From Streptomyces sp. NRRL B-1347 (lineage in GTDB: Bacteria > Actinomycetota > Actinomycetes > Streptomycetales > Streptomycetaceae), in contig NZ_JOJM01000023.1 in NCBI RefSeq assembly GCF_000720325.1, positions 1 through 64,000 of the forward strand: a stretch of 64,000 nucleotides of DNA, written 5' to 3'. Made by a program: the position numbers and the translations under genes. Under the pieces are notes generated by a model. The model was not told where the DNA came from, did not search any database, and saw only the letters and a list, made by a program, of their open reading frames with translations. This document shows, piece by piece, positions 31,852 through 62,160 of the stretch. The stretch's first letter is position 1, and each line of letters begins with the position of its first letter.

Positions 31852-34800
31852 GTGCTGGGGCTGACCATGCTGGTGACGTGGGCCAGGTCGATGCACGACC
31901 GGTTCGGACCGCAGCCGCCGGAGGTGCCGGGGGCGCGAGGGACAGCGCGGACACCGGAGGCGGCCGCGGTGACGGTCGACCGGGCGGCGGCCGAGGAGCG
32001 GCTGCGCGCCCTCGCGGCCCTGCCGCCCGCGGCCCGCCGCGACGACGTGGCGGAGCGCTCGGCCGACGCGACGACCAGCCTGCTCGCCGACCTCTTCGCG
32101 TTCGGGGCGACCTGCGAGGAACCCTGGCGGGTGCGCGAGGCGGCCGCACTCCTCGCCGACGTCCTCGAAGCGGTCGTCGCCGCGCTCGCGGTCGGCCGCG
32201 ACCCCCGCAGGAGCGACGCCCGGCGCGTCGCGCAGATGCTGGCGGCGCAGACCCACCTGGTGCACGGCATCGCCGCCGACGCGATCGGCCACCGCGGCGA
32301 GGCGCACCGGCACTTCTCGCTCGCCGCGCACCCGGCGGCCGCCCGGGTCGACGGCGTCGCCTTCGCCCTCGGCACCATCGGCGCCGCCCTCACCGACGAG
32401 GAGACCGACCGCGCGCCCCTCGCCGACGTCCCGGAATCCGCCCGGGACATGCTGGACCCGCTGGAGGAGATGTGCGGGTACGAACTCGCCGGACTCCGCC
32501 GGGCGTTGGAGGTGCGCCGCGCGGCGTACGACATGGTGGCGAAGGTCGCCGAGGACGGCCACCACGAGGAGGGCAGCCGGGAAGCGGCCCTCAAGCGCTG
32601 GCTGGAACAGTGGGGGCCGGGCGCGGAGGTCGAGCTGTGGATCGCCTGGACGGGCGCGTTCGTGCGCAGGCTGGGCGAGGAGGAGAACTCCGGCGAGAGC
32701 GGGGAGGGGCAGGGCGACGAGGCGCTCCTGGAGTGGGCGGCGCTCGGCGACCGGGTGCTCACGGCCTGCCCGGACGCCCCGCGGTTCCGCTGGGCGCTCG
32801 CCCGCCAGCTGCGGGCCCAGGGCGCGACGGCCCGCGAGATCCGCGTCCTGCGGGACCTCGTGGCCGACGACCCCGCGGACCCGCAGGCGGTCAGGTCCCT
32901 CGCCAACGCCTGCGCCGAGGCCGGCCGCCTGGACGAGGCCGTCGCACTGCTGCGCGCCCGGATCTCCGACCCGCCGGTGCCCGCCGACGAGCCCTTCGTG
33001 GAGCTGATCGTGCTGCTCCTCGCCGCCAGGATGCGCCCGGAGGCGGGGCAGTGGGACGAGGAGCTGGCCCGCATCACCGGCGGCCGCCGCATCACCGACG
33101 TCCTGCCGACGACGGGCAACGCCCCCGCACCCGCCGCCCGCCCGCCCGTGTACGCGCTGTTCAAGGACGGCGAACTGCTCATCGACCCCAAGAGCGGCAG
33201 CGTGCCGCCGGGCGAGGTCGCCGCCCAGCTCCGGGCCGCGATGATCGCGGGCAGCCCGGACGGCGCTGACCAGCTCCAGCGTCTCGCCGAGGACGATCCG
33301 GGCACCGCGGCCAAGGTGGCGAAGCTGCTCGGGGTGTCCCTCGTGACCCGCGCCCAGCGCGAGGCGTCCGAGTTCATCGGCCGCGGCGAGCACCACTTCC
33401 ACCGCGGTGAGTACGCCGACGCGGCGACGTACTACCAACGCGCCCTGGACGCCGACCCGGAGAGCTCGCTCGCCCTCCTGATGCTCGGCGACGTCCACTT
33501 CGTACGCCGTGAGATGGGGCTCGCCCGGGTCTACTTCCAGGAGTCGCTCGCCGTCGAGGAGACGCCGATGGCCTGGCGCTTCCTCGGCGACACCTTCCGC
33601 GACGCGCTCGACGGCGCGGAGGAGGCCCGGCGCTGCTACGAACGCGCGCTGGCCCTCGACCCCGGCTACGGCGGCGCCCGGCAGCCCCTCGAAGCACTGC
33701 CGCCCCCGACCGCGGCGCCCGCACCTGTGCCCGCACCGGCCGTCGACGAACCCGCGGCCGAACCCCCGACGGCCGAAGCCGACGCGGCCGAGCCCCGGAC
33801 GGACGGACCCCCGTCGCCCGAACCCCACGCGCCCGCCCGCTTCGGCGCCCCCTACGGCGGCCCCATCGGCCTGCCCGTCTCCGGGCCCGCCACCGGCACC
33901 GGCATCAAGTCCACCCTGCCCGCCGAACTCGAAGCCGCCGTGCGGGAGCGCGAGCCCGTCATCGGCGAGCTGCTCGCCGCGGCCGCCGACGACGACCGCT
34001 TCGACGCCTGGCTGCGCACCGAAGGCGCGGACCACTGGCCGGGCGCCCTCGACACCCTGCGGATGATGGTGTTCCAGTGGGCGGCCAAGGCGGGCGACTT
34101 CGAGCGCTCCCTGCTGCTCGCCCGGCGCGGCGTACAGCTCGCGGAGCACCTGGACCGGCAGTGGCCCACCGGCGACCCCGAGGAGCCGGGCCGGGCGCGG
34201 CTGCTCGCGGACGCCCTGAAGCAGGCCGCGGCCGTCCTCGACGACATGGGGCGCTACAGCGAGGCGTACGACCTGCTGCGCCAGGCCGAGCGGTGGCTGG
34301 TGACCGACGAGCACGAGAGGGAGCGCGCGGGCCGCGACCCGTGGCTCGACTTCGGGCAGTTCAGCAGCCTCGACAACTGGGCGATGCTGTACCGCGACCT
34401 CGCCCGGGTGGCGCGCCGCTGCGGCGACGCGCCCGCGGCCGAGGAGTACCAGCGCAGGCTCGACGAGATCACCGCCGACGTCCCGGCCAGCGACCACGAG
34501 CGGATCGTGTCGCTCGTCGAACTCGCCATGGCCTGGCACAAGCTGGGGGAGCGGGAGCGCGCCCTGAGCTGGTTCCACGAGGCCCTGCCGCTCGCCGAGC
34601 GGGAGGCGCTGCGCACCCCGGTGCCGGTCGCGCTCGCCACCGTCCACCACTACCTGGGCGTGGTCCTCGGCGAACAGGGCTTTCCCCGCATGGCCCTGCA
34701 CCACCTCGCCGAAGCCCGGCAGCGCAACTCCGGCAACGCCGACCGGCTCGCCCAGGACTGGCTCGCCACCGCCGCGGTGCTGCGCCGCTGGCCCGACCTC

Positions 34801-36561
34801 GGGCACGCCGTGCTCGCGTACGAGCAGGTCCTGCACCTGTCGGGCGTGCCGGGGCAGCGCGGCGACCCGCTGTTCTGGGCGCCCCGCGGCGAGCCCACGG
34901 CGCCGCGCGGCCACCGCGTGCTGTCCGCCGAGCGCGCCTGGCCCGCGATCCTGCCCATGGCCCACGCCGCCTGGGAGTACGGCCAGCAGTACACGGCCAC
35001 CGACGTGCTCGAACTCGGCGTGGAACTGGCCGACCTGGTGCGCGCGGCCGAACCGAACCCCGAGCGGCGCACCCACCTCCAGGACGACCGCGCCGAGGCG
35101 TACGAACTGCTGACCCGCTACCGCCTCCAGCGCGCGGAGACCGAGGCCGGGCGCGCGGCGGAACGGGCCGGTGACCGGCAGGCCGGCGCGGAGCACGACC
35201 CGCGCCACCACATCGCCGCGGCCTTCACCGCGTCCGAGCGCCTGCGCGCCCGCTCCCTGCTCGACGCCATGAGCACCGCCCAGCTCCGCGCGCCCGACGG
35301 CGTACCGCCCGCCCTGCTGGCCGACGAAGCGGCCCTCATCGGCGAGCGCGCGGCCCTCGCGGCGGCGCCCGCCGTGGACTGGAAGCGCCACTACGACCTG
35401 ACCGCGCGCCTCGACGCCCTGTGGCGGGAACTCGCCGGGCACGGTCCGCTCGCCGAGGAGTACGTCGCGGTCCGCCGCGCCAGCGTCATGGACCCGGCCG
35501 CGATCTCCCGCGAACTCGCGGGTCAGCGCACCGTGGTGGCCTCGTACGCCCTGCTCGACACCGGAGAGATCGCCCTGTTCACGCTGGACGGCGGCGACGA
35601 CGACGGCGACGAGGGCGCCGTGCGCGTGACCCGGGTCGACGCCGACGGCGCGGCGGTACTGCGCTTCGTCGCGGACAACCTGGGCAGCGCGGGGCGCGTC
35701 CGCGAGATGGCCGAGGACATGCCGGGGCTCTTCCACCGCGTCCTCGACCCGCTGGTGGCGCCGCTCACCGCGCTCACCCGCCCCGACGACACCGTCGTCA
35801 TCTGCCCCACCGGCGCCCTGCACCACGTGCCCTTCCACGCCCTGTGCCCCGACGCCTCCGGGGCGCTGATCGACCGCAACGCCGTGACGTATCTGCCGAC
35901 CGTGTCGCTCCTGCGCACCCTCACCCACCGCGCCCCCGCCGCGAGCGGCGGCGCCGTCGTCCTCGGCGACCCCGGCGGCGACCTGCCGCACGCGCGCGGC
36001 GAGGCCGTGGCCCTCGGGGAGCGCCTCGGCCGCGCCCCGCTGCTCGGCGAGCGGGCGACCCGGGAGCGGGTGCTGCGCGGCCTCCCCGGAGCGGAGGTCT
36101 TCCACGCCGCCTGCCACGCGTCCTTCGACGCCGCCGACCCGCTGGCCTCCGGACTCGTCCTCGCCGACGGCGTCCTGACGGCCCGTGACATCCTGCGGCA
36201 GGACTGGCACGGCGTCCGGCTCGCCGTCCTGTCCGCCTGCGAGACCGGCCTCGGCCGCACCAGCCGCACCGACGACACGCTCGGCCTGAGCTGGTCCCTG
36301 CTGTACGCGGGCGTGCGGTCCCTGGTGATGAGCCTGTGGCGGGTGCCGGACGCCTCCACGGCCGCCCTCATGGGCGACTTCCACGATCTGACCGCCGCGG
36401 GCGAGGCGCCCGGCGCGGCGCTGCGCACCGCCCTGCGCGCGGCCCGCGACCGACCGGGCGGTGACCGCCTGGCGAGCTGGGCGGCGTTCTGCCTGCTCGG
36501 CGACTGGCGCGCCCCGCGCCCCGACCCCCGTTCCGCGACCCCAGGGAGCACCCCGTGCTGA
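31852..36561 (+). CDS. Large TPR-CHAT protease-like protein
   Basis: A 1569-aa protein. TPR repeats are seen at about residues 290-370 and 505-615 (for example GRGEHHFHRGEYADAATYYQ). A Pro/Ala/Glu-rich linker (615-690) follows, then more helical repeats, then a C-terminal CHAT domain (about 1220-1560). CHAT is a caspase-like cysteine peptidase fold; the expected dyad is present as His1422 (ACHA) and Cys1463 (LSACETG). Such proteins usually act as regulated proteases in conflict or cell-death systems. The GTG start at 31852 follows GAGGGGGA. It overlaps the next gene by seven bases. The target is unknown. Confidence 0.9.
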   Translation: MLGLTMLVTWARSMHDRFGPQPPEVPGARGTARTPEAAAVTVDRAAAEERLRALAALPPAARRDDVAERSADATTSLLADLFAFGATCEEPWRVREAAALLADVLEAVVAALAVGRDPRRSDARRVAQMLAAQTHLVHGIAADAIGHRGEAHRHFSLAAHPAAARVDGVAFALGTIGAALTDEETDRAPLADVPESARDMLDPLEEMCGYELAGLRRALEVRRAAYDMVAKVAEDGHHEEGSREAALKRWLEQWGPGAEVELWIAWTGAFVRRLGEEENSGESGEGQGDEALLEWAALGDRVLTACPDAPRFRWALARQLRAQGATAREIRVLRDLVADDPADPQAVRSLANACAEAGRLDEAVALLRARISDPPVPADEPFVELIVLLLAARMRPEAGQWDEELARITGGRRITDVLPTTGNAPAPAARPPVYALFKDGELLIDPKSGSVPPGEVAAQLRAAMIAGSPDGADQLQRLAEDDPGTAAKVAKLLGVSLVTRAQREASEFIGRGEHHFHRGEYADAATYYQRALDADPESSLALLMLGDVHFVRREMGLARVYFQESLAVEETPMAWRFLGDTFRDALDGAEEARRCYERALALDPGYGGARQPLEALPPPTAAPAPVPAPAVDEPAAEPPTAEADAAEPRTDGPPSPEPHAPARFGAPYGGPIGLPVSGPATGTGIKSTLPAELEAAVREREPVIGELLAAAADDDRFDAWLRTEGADHWPGALDTLRMMVFQWAAKAGDFERSLLLARRGVQLAEHLDRQWPTGDPEEPGRARLLADALKQAAAVLDDMGRYSEAYDLLRQAERWLVTDEHERERAGRDPWLDFGQFSSLDNWAMLYRDLARVARRCGDAPAAEEYQRRLDEITADVPASDHERIVSLVELAMAWHKLGERERALSWFHEALPLAEREALRTPVPVALATVHHYLGVVLGEQGFPRMALHHLAEARQRNSGNADRLAQDWLATAAVLRRWPDLGHAVLAYEQVLHLSGVPGQRGDPLFWAPRGEPTAPRGHRVLSAERAWPAILPMAHAAWEYGQQYTATDVLELGVELADLVRAAEPNPERRTHLQDDRAEAYELLTRYRLQRAETEAGRAAERAGDRQAGAEHDPRHHIAAAFTASERLRARSLLDAMSTAQLRAPDGVPPALLADEAALIGERAALAAAPAVDWKRHYDLTARLDALWRELAGHGPLAEEYVAVRRASVMDPAAISRELAGQRTVVASYALLDTGEIALFTLDGGDDDGDEGAVRVTRVDADGAAVLRFVADNLGSAGRVREMAEDMPGLFHRVLDPLVAPLTALTRPDDTVVICPTGALHHVPFHALCPDASGALIDRNAVTYLPTVSLLRTLTHRAPAASGGAVVLGDPGGDLPHARGEAVALGERLGRAPLLGERATRERVLRGLPGAEVFHAACHASFDAADPLASGLVLADGVLTARDILRQDWHGVRLAVLSACETGLGRTSRTDDTLGLSWSLLYAGVRSLVMSLWRVPDASTAALMGDFHDLTAAGEAPGAALRTALRAARDRPGGDRLASWAAFCLLGDWRAPRPDPRSATPGSTPC

Positions 36562-37238
36562 CCGCCACCGGACTGCCCGCCGGATACGAGCTGATCGACC
36601 TCGTCACCCCCGCCGTCGAGGAGGACGAGCAGGACCGCGCCCTCGCCCCCGTCGGCGAGACCACGGTCACCCTGCTGCGGCGCGAGACCCGGATCGGGCT
36701 CGCCCGCGGCGCCGTGCAGCGCGTGGCAGGCGCCGAGCCGGGCCGCACCGGCTACGACATCCCGCTGATCTGTGTGGTCCAGACGCACCCGGAGACCGAT
36801 GTGCGCTGGTCGCGCCTGGTGATCGACCTGTCCCTCTCGCCCGGCGTGATCGTGGCGGACATGTCGCCCACGCTCGTCGACGGCGAGAGCCCCGTCGAGC
36901 TGGAGACCACGATGGGCGCGGGCCTCAGCTTCAACGTGGCCACCTCCGCGCTCGGCGCGCAGCTGTCCCCGCAGATCACCCGGCGCACGACGGTGTACTG
37001 CCCGCGCATCACGTCCTCCGGCGTCGGATTCACCACCGCCTACTGGGACTTCAGGACGTCCGACCGCGCCTTCCTGCACGTCAACGAGGAGCTGCGGCTG
37101 CTCGTCTCGGCCCCGGCGAACACCCCCGTGGAGGCCGCGGTGACCCTGCGGGCCCGCATCGTCCCCAAGGGCATCGGCCGGGTGGTCCGGCTCACCGGCA
37201 AGCTGGGCGGCGTCGAGGCGCGCTGCCGCCTGGCGTGA
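36555..37238 (+). CDS. Unknown protein coupled to the TPR-CHAT gene
   Basis: A 227-aa protein I do not recognise. It has no signal peptide or membrane segment. The second half alternates hydrophobic and polar residues, suggesting a beta-rich fold. The GTG start at 36555 lies inside the end of the CHAT gene (seven-base overlap), so both are made together; it is a plausible substrate, sensor or inhibitor of the CHAT protein. Confidence 0.8.
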   Translation: MLTATGLPAGYELIDLVTPAVEEDEQDRALAPVGETTVTLLRRETRIGLARGAVQRVAGAEPGRTGYDIPLICVVQTHPETDVRWSRLVIDLSLSPGVIVADMSPTLVDGESPVELETTMGAGLSFNVATSALGAQLSPQITRRTTVYCPRITSSGVGFTTAYWDFRTSDRAFLHVNEELRLLVSAPANTPVEAAVTLRARIVPKGIGRVVRLTGKLGGVEARCRLA

Positions 37239-55879: not shown

Positions 55880-56817
55880 CGCGAGCGACCGAGGCAACCC
55901 CCTTGACTGAGACGGTCGTTGACGCCCATCACCACGTGTGGGACCTCGCCGTGCGCGACCAGGAGTGGCTCGCCGGGCCCGCGATGGCCCCGATCCGGCG
56001 CGGCTTCTCGCTCGCCGACCTCGCGCCGCACGCCCGCGCGCACGGCGTCGCCGCCACCGTCCTCGTGCAGACCGTCACCGTGGCCGATGAGACCCCGGAG
56101 CTCCTCGCCCTCGCGGCCACCGACGGCCTGGTCGCCGGGGTGGTCGGCTGGACCGACCTCACCCGGCCCGACGTCGCCGAGACCCTGGCCGCGCTCCGCG
56201 AACTCCCCGGCGGGCGCCACCTGGTGGGCATCCGCCACCAGGTGCAGGGCGACCCCGACCCCGAGTGGCTGCTGCGCGCCGACACGCGGCGCGGCCTCGC
56301 CGCCGTGGCGGCCGCGGGGCTCGTGTACGACCTCGTGGTGCGCCCGGACCAGCTGCCGCTGTGCGCCGAGGCCGCCGCGCGCCTGCCCGGGCTCACCTTC
56401 GTCCTCGACCACCTGGGCAAACCGCCCGTGGCGTCCGGCGCCCTCGAACCCTGGGCGTCGTCCCTGCGCGCCCTCGCGACCCCGCCGAACACCGTCTGCA
56501 AGCTCTCGGGCCTGGTGACCGAGGCCGACTGGGCGACCTGGACGACGGCCGACCTGCGCCCCTACGCCGACACGGCCCTGGAGGCCTTCGGCCCCGGACG
56601 GCTCATGTTCGGCTCGGACTGGCCGGTGTGCGGACTCGCCGCCTCGTACGGTCAAGTCGTCGACACCGCACGGGAGTTGACGGCAGGACTGACCGGCGCC
56701 GAGCGCGCCCGGGTGTTCGCGGGCACGGCCCGGCGCGTGTACGGCCTGCCGGACCGGGCCCCGGGCGACGGCCTCAGCCCTCCTGGTCCGGCGGGCCCGC
56801 CGGGACCGCGGGGGTGA
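55876..56817 (+). CDS. L-fuconolactone hydrolase (amidohydrolase 2 family)
   Basis: A 313-aa TIM-barrel amidohydrolase opening L-fuconolactone to L-fuconate. Metal and catalytic residues are in DAHHHVWD, IRHQVQ, VLDHLGKP and the late SDWPVC Asp. It is the last gene of the fucose operon; its final 44 bases overlap the convergent small gene. The tail after about residue 290 is Pro/Gly-rich and may be an artefact of that overlap. The hydrolase expected to split the 2,4-diketo acid is not in this operon. Confidence 0.9.
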   Translation: MTRATEATPLTETVVDAHHHVWDLAVRDQEWLAGPAMAPIRRGFSLADLAPHARAHGVAATVLVQTVTVADETPELLALAATDGLVAGVVGWTDLTRPDVAETLAALRELPGGRHLVGIRHQVQGDPDPEWLLRADTRRGLAAVAAAGLVYDLVVRPDQLPLCAEAAARLPGLTFVLDHLGKPPVASGALEPWASSLRALATPPNTVCKLSGLVTEADWATWTTADLRPYADTALEAFGPGRLMFGSDWPVCGLAASYGQVVDTARELTAGLTGAERARVFAGTARRVYGLPDRAPGDGLSPPGPAGPPGPRG

Positions 56818-57019
56818 CCCCGGCGGGACCCTCCGGCGGCAGGGCCTCCTCCTCGGGGAGCTCCTCGGCCTTGGGGCCGTGCGTGCCGCGCGGCGGTCCC
56901 GCCCAGATGCCCAGGTCGTCGAGGTCGTCCGGGTCGCTGGGGCCGTCGGGTGCATCGGGTACGCCGGGTGTGACGGACACGCGGCCCGCGTCGGCGGTCG
57001 GGGCGTCAGGATCGGTCAT
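56774..57019 (-). CDS. Small acidic protein, end of the CHAT operon
   Basis: An 81-aa, very acidic, Pro/Gly/Asp-rich protein with no hydrophobic segment, probably largely unstructured. The ATG at 57019 has GAGGAG seven bases upstream and overlaps the DUF6338 gene by 14 bases, which supports a real gene. The only compact motif is DDLGIWAGPPRGTHG (about residues 34-48). Function unknown; it may be an adaptor or substrate of the CHAT protein. Confidence 0.75.
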   Translation of the reverse strand: MTDPDAPTADAGRVSVTPGVPDAPDGPSDPDDLDDLGIWAGPPRGTHGPKAEELPEEEALPPEGPAGVTPAVPAGPPDQEG

Positions 57020-57659
57020 CGGTGTCTCCTCGGGTCCTGCGGCGTGGTTCGTAGATCTCCACGAGGTCCAGGTCGCTCGCGCGCACGTAGAGGCCGCCCG
57101 TCTGGGGCAGCCGCGGTCCGAACGAGCCGTCGGCCTCCATGCGGTACTGGGATTCCAGGAAGAGGTCACCGGGCTGTGGGTAGGCGGAGGCGCGCGAGCG
57201 CGTTCCGTACCAGCCTCCCGCCCAGCCGCCGTTCTTGAGCCGCACGCGGACGTAACAGACCCCGCGGTCCTGGAACAGGGCGTCCCACGCCGTGGGGGTG
57301 CGCTCGTGCAGGGCCGCGCGCCGCCGCCGCACCCAGCGGGCCTCCACCAGGGCGACCAGGGCGGGCACCGCGACGGCGAGCAGCAGCAGGCACAGGCCGA
57401 ACACGCGCGGATGGTCGCCGACGCCCGCCAGCGGAGCCTTCCGGTCGCCCCGCAGAAGGCGGACGAGCTGGGGCCCGGCGGCGATCAGGTACACCGTGTC
57501 GAGCAGGACGCCCACGCCGAGGGCGCGCAGGATCCGGTTGCCGCTCTCCTGCTCGGCCTCCCGGATGCCGAGGAACCCCTCCCTGGCGAAGAGGTACGTG
57601 GTGCCGGGCAGGACGAGGAGCACCACGATCGCCAGCTGCTGGACGGTGCCCGGCGTCAT
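57006..57659 (-). CDS. DUF6338-family membrane protein
   Basis: A 217-aa protein matching what I recall of DUF6338. Three hydrophobic segments (about residues 5-24, 43-62 and 85-106) are followed by a soluble tail with the GGWAGGWYGTRSRASAYP block and DLFLESQYRM. It probably anchors a complex at the membrane. The ATG at 57659 overlaps the stop of the TPR gene (ATGA) and has AAGGAG seven bases upstream. Biochemical role unknown. Confidence 0.85.
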   Translation of the reverse strand: MTPGTVQQLAIVVLLVLPGTTYLFAREGFLGIREAEQESGNRILRALGVGVLLDTVYLIAAGPQLVRLLRGDRKAPLAGVGDHPRVFGLCLLLLAVAVPALVALVEARWVRRRRAALHERTPTAWDALFQDRGVCYVRVRLKNGGWAGGWYGTRSRASAYPQPGDLFLESQYRMEADGSFGPRLPQTGGLYVRASDLDLVEIYEPRRRTRGDTDDRS

Positions 57660-58786
57660 CCGCGTCTCCTTCGCCATGTCCGTCGGCCGCGTCTGCCGCC
57701 GCCCCGGCCGCCCCCGCCCCGGCCGCCGGTCGGGCCGTCCCGCCGGGCCTCCCAGGCCACACCTTGCGCCAGTTGCCGCAGATCGTCCAGGTCGCCCAGG
57801 TGCGCGCGCAGCTTCACCCAGTCGCCCTGCGCCTTGCCGACCTTCGCCACCTCCTCCCCGGCCCGGCCGAGCAGCTCGGCCGCGGCGCCCGCCGCGTCCT
57901 CGTCGGCGGCCTGCGCCCAGGTGAGCCGGGCGAGCACGAGCAGGAGGAAGGCGGCGAGCATCCGCTGCGGCTCCCGGGTGCGCCGCCGCAGAAGGAGCAG
58001 CGCGCGCGAGAAGCAGGTCGTCGCGCGGTCGGGCCGCTCCCGCGACAGGCTCTCCACCCCGTCGGCGACGAGGGCGTGCACCTCCGTGAGGACACCGGGG
58101 CCGAGCGTGGGCGCGCCCGCCTCGCCGGTGAGCAGTCGGTCCGCCTCCTGGAGGTGGCGCACCGTCTCGCGCCGCATCGTCCGGGCCCCGCCCAGGGACT
58201 CGCTGAGGACCAGCATCCGGTCCAGCGCGTCGACGGCTTCGGCCGCCCGCCCCCGCGCGAGGAGGGCCGCGCCCAGCAGGCCGCAGGCCCGTGCCGCCTG
58301 CGGCCGCTGGCCCGCCGCTTCGAAGACGGCGCGGCACTCCTGGAGGAAGGCCAGCTCGCGCTCGCCCGTGGGCTGCCCGGACTCGAGCGCGAGCAAGGCG
58401 TTGCTCCCGGCCTTGCCCAGCGTCTCCCGCAGGTCGGCCCGGCGGCAGTGCGTCCAGCTCTCCAGGTACGAGTCGAGTCCTTGCGCGAGGTCACCGGCCT
58501 GGCTGTGGGCCACGCCCAGGTTCAGCCGCACGTGGCCGAGGAGGGCGGAGTCGCCGGAGGCCTGTTCGGTGGCGATGCGCAGAGCCCGCCGCCCGGTGCT
58601 GATCGCCTCGGCGTAGCGCTCCTCTTCCGCGTAGGCCTGGCAGAGGAAGCAGAGGAGGTAGGCCAGGGTTTCGGGGGAGGTCGTGTCCCGGAGCCCGGGG
58701 AGCTCGACGAGCTGGAGGTACGCGATCCGCGCGTACGCGGGCATCCGCTCCAGGTCCGCGAAGTCCCGGAAGGGCGGCGGCTTCAT
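57656..58786 (-). CDS. TPR-like helical protein, CHAT operon
   Basis: A 376-aa protein made mainly of helical repeats of the TPR type; the clearest lie at about residues 35-110 and 130-190 (RLNLGVAHSQAGDLAQGLDSYL). The last 25 residues are Gly/Arg-rich, a likely nucleic-acid or acidic-protein binding tail. The ATG overlaps the CHAT gene's stop (ATGA). It probably scaffolds or senses for the CHAT protein. Confidence 0.85.
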   Translation of the reverse strand: MKPPPFRDFADLERMPAYARIAYLQLVELPGLRDTTSPETLAYLLCFLCQAYAEEERYAEAISTGRRALRIATEQASGDSALLGHVRLNLGVAHSQAGDLAQGLDSYLESWTHCRRADLRETLGKAGSNALLALESGQPTGERELAFLQECRAVFEAAGQRPQAARACGLLGAALLARGRAAEAVDALDRMLVLSESLGGARTMRRETVRHLQEADRLLTGEAGAPTLGPGVLTEVHALVADGVESLSRERPDRATTCFSRALLLLRRRTREPQRMLAAFLLLVLARLTWAQAADEDAAGAAAELLGRAGEEVAKVGKAQGDWVKLRAHLGDLDDLRQLAQGVAWEARRDGPTGGRGGGGRGGGRRGRRTWRRRRG

Positions 58787-61700
58787 GTGCCCACCAGAGC
58801 GAAGGGCGCCCACAAGTAGGGGTGCGCGAAGGGCCGTTCGGGCACGCCGTCGGCCGTGAGGCGGTGCCGGACCTCGGCGGGAAGCAGGTCAAGGGCGAGG
58901 AGTTCGGGCACGGTCGCGGCCCGCAGCCACAGCTGGGCTCCCCGCAGGGCGCTCGCCGGAGTGGCGGGCCCGGGCGGTGGCGGCGCACCGGGGTCAGGGC
59001 CGTCGTCGAGGCCGAGCAGCCGCCGGTAGCAGGCGAGCATCAGCAGGACGGCCGCGGTGTCGCGCGCCTCCCACTGCGTGCACACCACCCCGGCCCCGCC
59101 CGCGAGCATGATGCCCGTGGGCAGGCCGATCGCCTCGTCGGGCAGCCGGGCGTCCACGAGCCCCGACTCGCAGGCGGACAGGGTCACAAGCCGGGCGCGC
59201 TCCAGCGGCCGGGGCCGGGCGTCGAGCAGAGCGGCCAGGGTGACGCGGCCGCCGTCCAGGTCGAGCCCGGAGGCGAGCGGGTCGTCGGGGTCGTAGGCGC
59301 CGTGGCAGGCCAGATGGACGTGGGTGGCACGGGCCAGCTCCGCCAGCAGGTCCCGGGTCACGTGGTGGCCCTCGCCCGCGGCGGCGAAGAGGCGGGTGAG
59401 CGCCCGCGCCTCCTGGGCGGCGAGGATGCCGCTGTCCGCGCCGGAGTCGGACGCCGCGACGAGGACGGGCGCGGACGGCGCGGCGGCGGCCCGCCGCCGG
59501 GCCGCGAGGAGCAGCCGCACCGACGGGGCGTAGGCCACCGCGTGCGTGACGAGCAGCGGTTCGCCGGTCGCCGGGAGCGTCGCGGCGTGCAGCGGAAGGT
59601 GGGCGAGCGGACCGCAGGCCACCACGGCCGCGCCCGCAGCGGCCGGGCCGAGGGCGTCGGCGAGCGGCGCGACCAGGCGCTCCCCGAGCCGGGCGAGGAG
59701 GGGCCGCAGCCCGCGCCCGTCGGCGCGGGCGGCCGCGGCGACCTCGCGGGCCAGACCGGTGGCCTCCGTGACGGTCAGCGGCGAGCGGACGGCTTCGAGC
59801 TCCGGCCCCGCGTCGCCCGCGTGCCGGACGATCAGGGACACGCTCCCGGCGGGCGCGCAGGCCACGAAGCACAGCGGCTCCCCGGGCCGGGCCGCGGCGC
59901 GGACGTCGTCCCACGTCGTGTGCCGGAGGAACGTCCCCGTGCCGGGGAGTTCCCGGATCCGCGCGACGGCGGCCGCGAGCGCGGCACGGGCCTCCTCCAG
60001 GAGCGCGCCCACCTCGTACTCGGCGGACTCGATCCAGCGGCCGTCGCCCTCGGCGGAACGCGGCCTGCCGAGGTCGCGGTTGCGGGACTCCAGGGCCTGC
60101 ACGGCCTCGGCGGCCCGCACGTACGCGGCGTGCGCCTCCGGGTCCGTCCGGGCCACCTCGTCGAGCTGGGCGTGGTCCGGTGAGAGCGCCAGGTTGAAGG
60201 TCCGCGTCCGGCCCCGCTCCAGGCACAGCACCGCGTCCCGCGGCCGCCCCGCGCGGGCGAGCGCGTAGGCGGCCCGCTGGTGCAGATCGCCCGCCGACCG
60301 CAGGTGCCGCTCCCGCGAGGCGCTCACCAGGCAGTACCGGAACAGCTCGTCGTCGGCCGACACCGCCTGCTCGTACGCGGTGCCCGCCCGGGTCCAGTCG
60401 CCCTGCTCGGCGACGGCGTTCCCGAGGCCCGTCGCCACCTCCCGCAGGACCCGGGGCCGGTCGTGCGCCTGGGCCACGGCCGATTCGAGCGCGGTCACCT
60501 CCAGCTCCCGCAGCTCGGCGGCCCGGTCCGGGTCGAGCGCCCGGCAGCGCCGGGCCGCATCCGCCAACTGCCCCTGTGCGAGGGCGAGTTCGACCCTCGT
60601 GGGCAGCCCGTCGTAGGCGTCGACGGCCTCCCGTACGTGCCGCAGCGCCTGCCGGGCCTTCGCCACCGGATCGTCAGCCGCGCCCCGCTCGGCCTGCCGG
60701 AGCAGGGCGAAGCCGAGCTTGGTCGTGGTGCGGGCCCACAGATGCGGAGCGGTGCTCTTGGGGCGGTCCGCGAGCGCGGCCCGGTGCAGCCGCACCTCCT
60801 CGTCGTACTCGTCCAGGGCGTGGGCGATGAGGGCGAGTTTGTCGTAGGTGCTGGACGCCTCCAGGCGGTCACCGACGCGTTCGTAGATCGTGAGGGCGCG
60901 CTGCGCGTGCGCACGGGCCCTCAGGAGGTTGTCCCGCCGGACGCCACGGGTGCGCTTGAACAGCGAGACCGCGAGCCTGGCCTGGGTGTTGGCCCACTGC
61001 TCGGGGTCGGTCTCCTCCGACTCGACCTCGTTGAGCCGCTCGTACAGGCGGATCACCTGCTCCTGGTTCACGGCGGGGTCACCCTGCTGCCGGGCGTTGT
61101 ACGCCGCCGCGAGGTGGCTCTGGGCGTCGCACCACAGATGCTTGGCGTCGGCGGGGTCGAGCCGCTCGACGACGGGCTTCAGGAGGTCGATGGCCTCCTC
61201 GATGTCCTCAGGGCCGGACTGGGTGCCCCGCTCGACGAGCACGACCGCCAGCTCGGTGCGGGCCCGCGCCCACGTCTCCGCGGCCGTCTCCGGCTCCACC
61301 GCGGCCAGGGCCGTGCGCAGATGGCGCAGCGCGTGCTCCTGGTTGGCGCGGAAGTCGCCGATGGACCGGCGGCCGTAGGCGCGGCCCGCTTCGAGATGGG
61401 CGATGGCCCGGACCGGGGCGTGCTCGTCCCGGGTGAGGCCGCGGGCCGCGCGGACCAGCAGGCCGATGCCGCGCTCGACGTCGACCACGTCGCCCTCGCG
61501 GCGCATGGCGCACAGGGCCTGGCCCAGGCACATCCGGAGGGTGGTCCGCAGCTCGGGGTGGGTTTCGCCGTCGCCGAGCAGTTCGAGGCCCTGCTCGGCG
61601 AGGCGGACCAGCTCGTCGACCAGCGGCCCGTGCGTCACCGACCTGCCGAGGCCGGGCGGCCACTGATCGAGGATCCGCTCCAGGACCCGCAGCACCCGCT

Positions 61701-62160
61701 CCGGCGGCGGTCCGCTCGCGGGCTTGGCGGGGAACGAGCCGGACCGCTCCGCGGGGAGGTCGTCCGGGACGTAGGAGCGCAGGAACACCGACGCCGCCTC
61801 GAAGGGCAGCGGGACGACGCCCGACTCCTCGGCCTCCTCCGCGCTGACCGGCCCGAGCCGGTCGAGGAGGGCGTCCGCGTAGGTCTTGCGGTTCGCCTCG
61901 TCGGCCGCCGCCGACGAGGCCGGCGGGCAGAAGAAGAACAGCTGCGGGGAGGAGCGGCTGCCGTACACGAGCAGCGGCACCCCCCGGCGGGTCCTGGCCC
62001 CGCAGGCCGGGCACGTGACCGCCGGGATCTCGCCGCCGATCACCTTCGCGACCAGATCGGGGCGTGCGTCGGCGTCGACGGCCAGATACGTCTCGTCGTC
62101 CGCCGCCGCGCCGCAGTCCTGGCAGTTCCAGCGGAACCGCAGGACGGACGAGTAGTCCAT
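58783..62160 (-). CDS. CpXC-TPR-CHAT protein
   Basis: A 1125-aa protein that opens the operon. The N-terminus is a CpXC-type zinc ribbon (Cys13, Cys16, Cys50, Cys53) of about 170 residues. Helical TPR-type repeats cover about 200-640, and a CHAT caspase-like domain is C-terminal (about 780-1110). The catalytic dyad is His953 (LACHG) and Cys997 (LSACESG). The ATG at 62160 is chosen because it starts the zinc-ribbon core and follows a GGGGGGAA site. It is likely a protease switched on by a signal read through the ribbon or the repeats. Confidence 0.9.
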   Translation of the reverse strand: MDYSSVLRFRWNCQDCGAAADDETYLAVDADARPDLVAKVIGGEIPAVTCPACGARTRRGVPLLVYGSRSSPQLFFFCPPASSAAADEANRKTYADALLDRLGPVSAEEAEESGVVPLPFEAASVFLRSYVPDDLPAERSGSFPAKPASGPPPERVLRVLERILDQWPPGLGRSVTHGPLVDELVRLAEQGLELLGDGETHPELRTTLRMCLGQALCAMRREGDVVDVERGIGLLVRAARGLTRDEHAPVRAIAHLEAGRAYGRRSIGDFRANQEHALRHLRTALAAVEPETAAETWARARTELAVVLVERGTQSGPEDIEEAIDLLKPVVERLDPADAKHLWCDAQSHLAAAYNARQQGDPAVNQEQVIRLYERLNEVESEETDPEQWANTQARLAVSLFKRTRGVRRDNLLRARAHAQRALTIYERVGDRLEASSTYDKLALIAHALDEYDEEVRLHRAALADRPKSTAPHLWARTTTKLGFALLRQAERGAADDPVAKARQALRHVREAVDAYDGLPTRVELALAQGQLADAARRCRALDPDRAAELRELEVTALESAVAQAHDRPRVLREVATGLGNAVAEQGDWTRAGTAYEQAVSADDELFRYCLVSASRERHLRSAGDLHQRAAYALARAGRPRDAVLCLERGRTRTFNLALSPDHAQLDEVARTDPEAHAAYVRAAEAVQALESRNRDLGRPRSAEGDGRWIESAEYEVGALLEEARAALAAAVARIRELPGTGTFLRHTTWDDVRAAARPGEPLCFVACAPAGSVSLIVRHAGDAGPELEAVRSPLTVTEATGLAREVAAAARADGRGLRPLLARLGERLVAPLADALGPAAAGAAVVACGPLAHLPLHAATLPATGEPLLVTHAVAYAPSVRLLLAARRRAAAAPSAPVLVAASDSGADSGILAAQEARALTRLFAAAGEGHHVTRDLLAELARATHVHLACHGAYDPDDPLASGLDLDGGRVTLAALLDARPRPLERARLVTLSACESGLVDARLPDEAIGLPTGIMLAGGAGVVCTQWEARDTAAVLLMLACYRRLLGLDDGPDPGAPPPPGPATPASALRGAQLWLRAATVPELLALDLLPAEVRHRLTADGVPERPFAHPYLWAPFALVGT

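Follow-up and report, generated by a model that had tools for sequence, protein, structure and literature searches.

A CpXC-CHAT operon of Streptomyces sp. NRRL B-1347 and a candidate DUF6338-microprotein membrane module in bacterial immunity

What does a caspase-like protein do when it is encoded in one overlapping operon with a repeat protein, a small membrane protein, and an acidic microprotein, and does such an operon serve in conflict? The question is raised by the window analyzed here, a stretch of 64,000 nucleotides from Streptomyces sp. NRRL B-1347 (contig NZ_JOJM01000023.1), in which a four-gene operon occupies positions 56774 to 62160. The caspase-like operon itself is a confirmed observation. 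The evidence tilts toward a caspase-type conflict operon that uses a membrane module of DUF6338 and a microprotein. It also appears somewhat more likely than not that DUF6338 with GYxP microproteins is a portable, unrecognized immunity module, independently acquired by TPR-CHAT, TIR-caspase, E1-E2/JAB, cyclic oligonucleotide-based antiphage signaling (CBASS), and restriction systems, and that one branch of this module, in Streptomyces, is a near-obligate partner of a class of TPR-CHAT proteases and maybe their membrane target.

The operon and its DUF6338-CHAT linkage in Streptomyces

The four genes are real, lie on the minus strand in the order CHAT, TPR, DUF6338, and acidic protein, and overlap successively by 4, 4, and 14 bases, as the first-pass annotation of this DNA had read them (ATGA, ATGA, and 14 bases).

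62160..58783, minus strand: gene of the CpXC-TPR-CHAT protein, a putative protease; ATG start, 1125 amino acids
58786..57656, minus strand: TPR protein gene; 376 amino acids, TPR_12 E 4.9e-12
57659..57006, minus strand: DUF6338 membrane protein gene; 217 amino acids, PF19865 E 6.4e-60
57019..56774, minus strand: acidic microprotein gene; 81 amino acids, isoelectric point (pI) 4.05

Of the 392 genomes of the genus, 26 encode close relatives of the window's DUF6338 protein (E <= 1e-10), at 27 loci when two pieces in G082 are taken as one. At 25 of the 27 loci, DUF6338 has a CHAT gene beside it, no more than about 1.7 kb away, the exceptions being L033, at a contig end, and L092, with an NB-ARC/AAA-TPR neighbor. 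All four orientations occur at the 25 loci (11 convergent, 9 DUF6338 to CHAT, 3 CHAT to DUF6338, and 2 divergent), and the three CHAT-to-DUF6338 loci include the window type with TPR between. When the PF12770 profile was run over the 25 other DUF6338-bearing genomes, one to eleven CHAT matches per genome were obtained; the DUF6338 neighbor is the only CHAT match of its genome in G045, G655, G628, and G023, and the Streptomyces sp. NRRL B-1347 genome (10.2 Mb) has nine. A Mantel test that ignores shared species history showed the protein distances of DUF6338 and CHAT to be correlated (r 0.897; 0 of 5000 permutations as high); it used 25 pairs, drawn from 21 survey loci and from L022, L023, L024, and L025, with L035, L036, L088, and L099 left out. 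TPR-CHAT genes also adjoin the more distant DUF6338 gene of the genus at L075 and DUF6338 on one Streptomyces plasmid. No CpXC match was present in the seven DUF6338-adjacent CHAT proteins examined outside the operon family. Two of the 25 loci, L035 and L036, look broken into pieces, as if decaying, and at L092 (59-3836) DUF6338 and a companion open reading frame (ORF) adjoin the NB-ARC/AAA-TPR protein and no CHAT gene.

The same gene order was found at L070 (genome G688), L022 (Streptomyces sp. BK340), and L023 (S. mangrovisoli). Identities to these three are about 60-85% for CHAT, 52-78% for TPR, 75-92% for DUF6338, and 57-78% for the acidic protein, which in L022 and L023 is comparable over the core stretch only. 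When two close pairs were compared, each of the four genes had a nonsynonymous substitution rate (dN) below its synonymous rate (dS), with only a weak difference for the acidic gene (0.13 vs 0.18 and 0.14 vs 0.31). Among the 392 genomes, the acidic protein was detected in two, its own included, with at most the best 14 candidates per genome scored, and a DUF6338 protein more than 75% identical was likewise detected in two, its own included; the exact operon is therefore rare. The four-gene order proposed by the first-pass annotation is conserved but rare, with these two genomes and the strains of L022 and L023 as its recorded carriers. Outside the operon, L022 and L023 are unlike the window, which suggests that the operon moves as a unit; G688 has the window's neighbors.

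The close CHAT family in the protein database counts 13 proteins, the window's own included. Twelve are taken as linked on one contig with a TPR or acidic homolog, on the ground that the longest contigs of the two are equal in length, and the Acrocarpospora protein is the one without such a presumed linkage. Precomputed domains include CpXC in nine of the 13, and the other four are shorter at the N terminus. Named homologs of the TPR protein are all from Streptomyces. A degraded copy was seen in Streptomyces spectabilis (P0038): its CpXC and TPR parts are run together and the CHAT domain is lost, and a contig of equal length carries an acidic homolog.

DUF6338 beside other immune systems and its companion microproteins

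ThsB-type TIR and caspase C14 genes lie beside DUF6338 at three loci: L074 of an actinobacterium, the Curtobacterium plasmid pTCL, and the Proteus penneri plasmid pPp47, where the TIR-caspase-DUF6338 group is found beside Tn7-like transposition genes. E2, E1, and JAB domains with a metallohydrolase accompany DUF6338 on Acinetobacter plasmids, and a CBASS-type cyclase (PADLOC E 5.8e-125) with a two-transmembrane-helix (2TM) SLATT effector accompanies it in Mesorhizobium. Other adjoining genes encode a type IIG restriction enzyme (L080), PD-T7-4 (L072), a type I restriction protein (Gordonia), and, on one Acinetobacter plasmid, DUF4062, a family of TIR-like NADase defense according to the available text of PMC13174449. 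In total, a conflict gene adjoins DUF6338 at 10 of 19 plasmid or phage places (H1, assessed through its duplicate L091, and H2, H3, H4, H11, H12, H17, H20, H24, and H33), a count that leaves out a weak methyltransferase match beside H8 and a TIR gene 3 kb from H7. At class level, 10 of 296 genomes carry DUF6338, two of them in the genus; the other eight include G381 and G456, whose loci were looked at.

At L133, L134, and L136, all on Acinetobacter plasmids, the E2-E1-JAB genes, DUF6338, and tandem GYxP microproteins stand beside WYL regulators; L133 and L134 have the metallohydrolase, L134 and L136 have TniB genes, and the genes of L136 look fragmented. The Proteus TIR-caspase-DUF6338 stretch, compared as DNA with 5426 E. 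coli genomes, gave only a 112-base match to the caspase in one of them.

Directly after many DUF6338 genes come tiny proline-rich ORFs with a GYxP core, singly or up to three in number, sought with starts from 40 bases before to 90 bases after the DUF6338 stop. Streptomyces companions read ERGYTPKRTVAEPDEAPGGPAGTS or KTYRPTDLMAEPDELPPGPSG; proteobacterial ones carry GYQP or similar once or twice, often with PPKKP or a like run at the C terminus, and two or three stand in tandem on Acinetobacter and Sphingomonas plasmids. A strict motif occurred in a tiny ORF after 24 of 50 DUF6338 genes compared to 1 of 495 other genes, and this sole control match is an overlooked DUF6338 gene of L088. The motif was drawn by eye on the same loci, so that the 24 of 50 is descriptive and the controls carry the weight; the controls are crude ORF calls, and several loci are closely related to each other. 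A broader motif was found after 30 of 50 DUF6338 genes and 1 of 494 controls. At plasmid and phage loci, 12 of the 18 being also within the 50, the strict motif gave 9/18 vs 0/115 and the loose one 12/18 vs 1/115.

In a leave-one-out test of a hidden Markov model (HMM) with 19 training sequences chosen by motif, 24 loci with a close Streptomyces DUF6338 gene outside the CpXC operon family were scored, and at 21 of them the companion exceeded every one of 494 controls. Over all loci, leaving out L033 at a contig edge, the broken L035 and L036, and L088, which duplicates L025, 22 of 49 beat the best control, namely, these 21 and L121; among those that did not are the four CpXC-operon loci and L075. 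Klebsiella phage pJN2-26 (L131, 3665-4415, circular record) also carries a DUF6338-like gene and, after it, a GYQP microprotein.

Comparable small proteins have been observed before. In the available text of PMC10433244, three proline-rich small proteins of P. stutzeri, predicted in an operon with DUF6338, were seen by mass spectrometry with 44-114 spectra, being well expressed in ordinary growth, and are regarded by the authors as not conserved beyond P. stutzeri. They may correspond to the present companions, which they resemble by description; as far as that text goes, the small proteins are described there without an immune link (PMC10433244).

The acidic ORF of the window sits in the companion position, overlapping the end of DUF6338 by its 14 bases. 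It has no Pfam match at E <= 1. A conserved core was delimited in its product:

56816..56905, minus strand: conserved core of the acidic protein, residues 39-68, WAGPPRGTHxPK...LPPEGPAGV, 15 sequences

Compared profile to profile, the acidic and companion families scored 20.8, whereas 200 column shuffles averaged 9.5 and reached at most 17.1; the aligned stretch pairs AGPPRGTHxPK...LPPEGPAGVS with RGYTPK...EPDEAPGGPAGTS. This similarity and the position make the acidic protein a probable counterpart of the GYxP companions, and it is not filed as a member. The assignment is weakened by the low hhalign probability of the same profile match (11%), by RGTHxPK or the like in place of a GYxP core, and by the companion HMM, which misses the acidic protein (-6.4 bits vs 11.9 for the best control) and puts the L022 and L023 homologs just below that control (10.1 and 11.8 bits). 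Of the earlier description as an acidic disordered protein, the acidity stands with the pI given above, and the composition suggests disorder.

Predicted features of the protease and the membrane protein

The following features were located in the CHAT and DUF6338 genes.

61891..62127, minus strand: N-terminal CpXC zinc-ribbon-like domain of the CHAT protein, residues 12-90, PF14353 E 4.4e-8
58789..59703, minus strand: CHAT protease domain, residues 820-1124, PF12770 E 7e-39
59302..59304, minus strand: His953, predicted catalytic histidine, motif ACHGA
59170..59172, minus strand: Cys997, predicted catalytic cysteine, motif ACESG
57042..57299, minus strand: predicted Sm/LSm-like domain of the DUF6338 protein, residues 121-206

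The CHAT domain belongs to PF12770 with its conserved His and Cys. His953 and Cys997 are invariant in 20 aligned sequences and also in all 25 CHAT proteins from the pairs of the Mantel test, and they are predicted to be the catalytic pair, ACHGA and ACESG being what we take to be CHAT catalytic motifs. The CpXC-TPR-CHAT protein is accordingly proposed, from its sequence, as a cysteine endopeptidase. Cys13, Cys16, Cys50, and Cys53 are the cysteines of the CpXC domain, which may bind zinc. The AlphaFold2 model of the CHAT protein had a mean predicted local distance difference test score of 80, with low confidence in the CpXC region; in a Foldseek search with this model, Csx29 chains ranked first, and VIA-align listed Csx29 and separase rows. 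A Csx29/separase-like TPR-CHAT fold is thus predicted, and the score against the curated Csx29 model was 49.9 bits, below its cut-off of 300. The view of this protein as a zinc-ribbon TPR-CHAT protein agrees with the CpXC and CHAT matches, the retained His/Cys pair, and the predicted fold. The Arg/Gly tail that the first-pass annotation had assigned to the TPR scaffold is shared by L070 only and absent in L022 and L023, and it was rejected as a functional feature because it is not conserved.

The DUF6338 protein scored 202.7 bits against the Pfam cut-off of 26.5. Its model has three long helices (residues 5-30, 39-70, and 84-120) followed by an Sm-like domain; the helix packing is of low confidence (predicted template modeling score, pTM, 0.46). 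Residues 121-206 form an Sm-like barrel with an N-terminal helix in the predicted model, in agreement with the Sm/LSm fold. The predicted domain resembles Sm, LSm, and Hfq proteins in fold and differs from them in being fused to membrane helices and in lacking a Pfam LSM match, DUF6338 being the sole family matched in the protein at E <= 1. The DUF6338 profile had a best E of 0.22 against PDB sequences. Homology to MscS was rejected at an hhalign probability of 0.2%, obtained with a profile weakened by 3 of 20 rows (L102, L111, and L114) mis-framed at contig edges. None of the four operon proteins matched a gasdermin family in Pfam; the soluble part of DUF6338 is predicted to be Sm-like, and the packing of its membrane part is the low-confidence one. 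The earlier three-helix membrane anchor is therefore kept as a prediction of three long helices and extended by the predicted Sm-like domain.

Proposed mechanism, alternatives, and known systems

The operon would serve in immunity or programmed dormancy. In the CHAT protein, a trigger is probably sensed by the zinc ribbon and TPR solenoid, which would also restrain the protease, and the TPR protein probably serves as an adaptor. DUF6338 and the acidic microprotein would make up a membrane module, to which DUF6338 would contribute three helices and a cytosolic Sm-like domain and the microprotein a flexible peptide likely to bind this domain; a similar module would be joined to the other immune systems. 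Once activated, the protease may act at the membrane on or through the DUF6338-acidic pair, by cutting or releasing, and growth would be halted or the cell killed. Zinc binding, a complex of the products, the trigger, the substrate, and the outcome are all suggested steps, as is the action of the module itself. Because DUF6338 homologs elsewhere adjoin defense genes, TIR-caspase included, the earlier reading as a membrane-linked caspase-like module of conflict, stress, or death still fits in its main part, without the Arg/Gly tail.

Several findings weigh against this reading. The genes flanking the operon, for lipase maturation and an amidohydrolase, do not form a defense island, and the four proteins have a single PADLOC match between them, a weak one of the CHAT protein (E 8.9e-4). 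No defense gene adjoins DUF6338 at 9 of the 19 plasmid or phage places viewed, as judged from one to three neighbors each. An adjacent defense gene was found at only 4 of 15 fetched distant chromosomal loci, in a check of one to three genes per locus that took in none at L079 and L083; 19 genomes of the phylum were over the DUF6338 cut-off, of which 15 besides the window's own were fetched and G307, G387, and G344 left out, and the count leaves aside two genes, PIN_8 in the vicinity of L085 and a Dsr1-like one at about 4 kb from L082. The CBASS and restriction neighbors bring no protease, so partner cleavage is not a universal mode of the module. For the P. stutzeri DUF6338 protein, the available text of PMC10433244 gives no peptide, membrane fractions being outside that analysis.

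How the module acts divides the explanations further. It is a serious possibility, short of probable, that DUF6338 and the microprotein form a membrane tether or brake that docks the protease or another effector and keeps this partner quiet until infection. DUF6338 is added to systems that already have a sensor and an effector (TIR-caspase, E1-E2/JAB, and CBASS), and the ordinary-growth expression of the P. stutzeri small proteins (PMC10433244, available text) agrees with this; the several plasmid and phage places without a defense gene seen beside DUF6338 speak against it. A rather unlikely explanation is that DUF6338 is a proteolytically triggered membrane effector, in which the microprotein, or the linker preceding the Sm-like domain, keeps the helix bundle closed and a CHAT cut opens a pore. 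Bacterial gasdermins open a pore on protease cleavage, and MscS channels combine three membrane helices with an Sm-like domain, a layout like that predicted for DUF6338; the protease partners, CHAT in Streptomyces and caspases in other bacteria, also fit. However, sequence similarity to MscS is lacking at the hhalign probability given above, the helix packing is of low confidence, DUF6338 is also found with protease-free systems, and the CBASS-type locus has its own 2TM effector. As DUF6338 joins protease-free systems, the tether or brake is at least as likely as the cleavage-triggered effector. Unlikelier still is a Streptomyces housekeeping or developmental regulator of envelope stress or differentiation, to which the chromosomal site by metabolic genes, the neighbors kept in G688, and the one to eleven CHAT matches per DUF6338-bearing genome would be suited, but not the patchy distribution (2/392 genomes), the other flanks in L022 and L023, or the defense genes adjoining DUF6338 elsewhere.

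Under the favored conflict reading, the operon can be compared with known protease-based systems. Craspase (Csx29 and Csx30 of type III-E clustered regularly interspaced short palindromic repeats, CRISPR) also has a TPR-CHAT protease, Csx29, with a predicted likeness in fold, and differs from the operon, which has an extra CpXC domain and a membrane partner. Cas7-11 and Csx30 were not found in the operon, and the two flanking genes are of other families; the search for Cas7-11 was confined to this region of the genome. Type IV Thoeris consists of a TIR enzyme and a caspase-like protease, which is activated by the TIR product, according to the available text of PMC12847820 (citing Rousset et al. 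2025 for the activation). It shares with the operon a caspase-fold protease, and the DUF6338 family is also present at the three TIR-caspase loci, which may belong to this type; the window operon differs in having no TIR match at E <= 1 in its four proteins and in its protease being CHAT with no C14 match. Caspase- or trypsin-activated nucleases have been acquired by unrelated immune systems, as in Canu, a caspase-nuclease pair, and the nuclease-trypsin pair of Hachiman/AVAST (PMC12799240, available text). The recurrent uptake of a protease-bearing pair would be the same here, whereas the partner in those pairs is a nuclease and in the window a membrane protein with a microprotein, for which cleavage activation is a proposal.

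NCBIfam and PADLOC give the operon system no name. In the literature searched, with most subscription journals outside its scope, no DUF6338-CHAT pair and no CpXC-CHAT protein is described, and PMC10433244 is the sole paper that mentions DUF6338. The DUF6338-microprotein module could be a part new to the field. Csx29 is the only CHAT protease with a named substrate in that literature, and DUF6338 is a concrete candidate partner for others. If real, the module would be a component common to several immune systems, could account for small proteins mistaken for de novo genes, and would be a marker for discovering further systems.

Two further CHAT observations were made apart from the operon. A second TPR-CHAT gene of the window (31852-37238, plus strand, 1569 amino acids) overlaps a downstream gene of 227 amino acids without a Pfam match, and in the relative G688 a further CHAT match is separated from the operon by about 22 kb.

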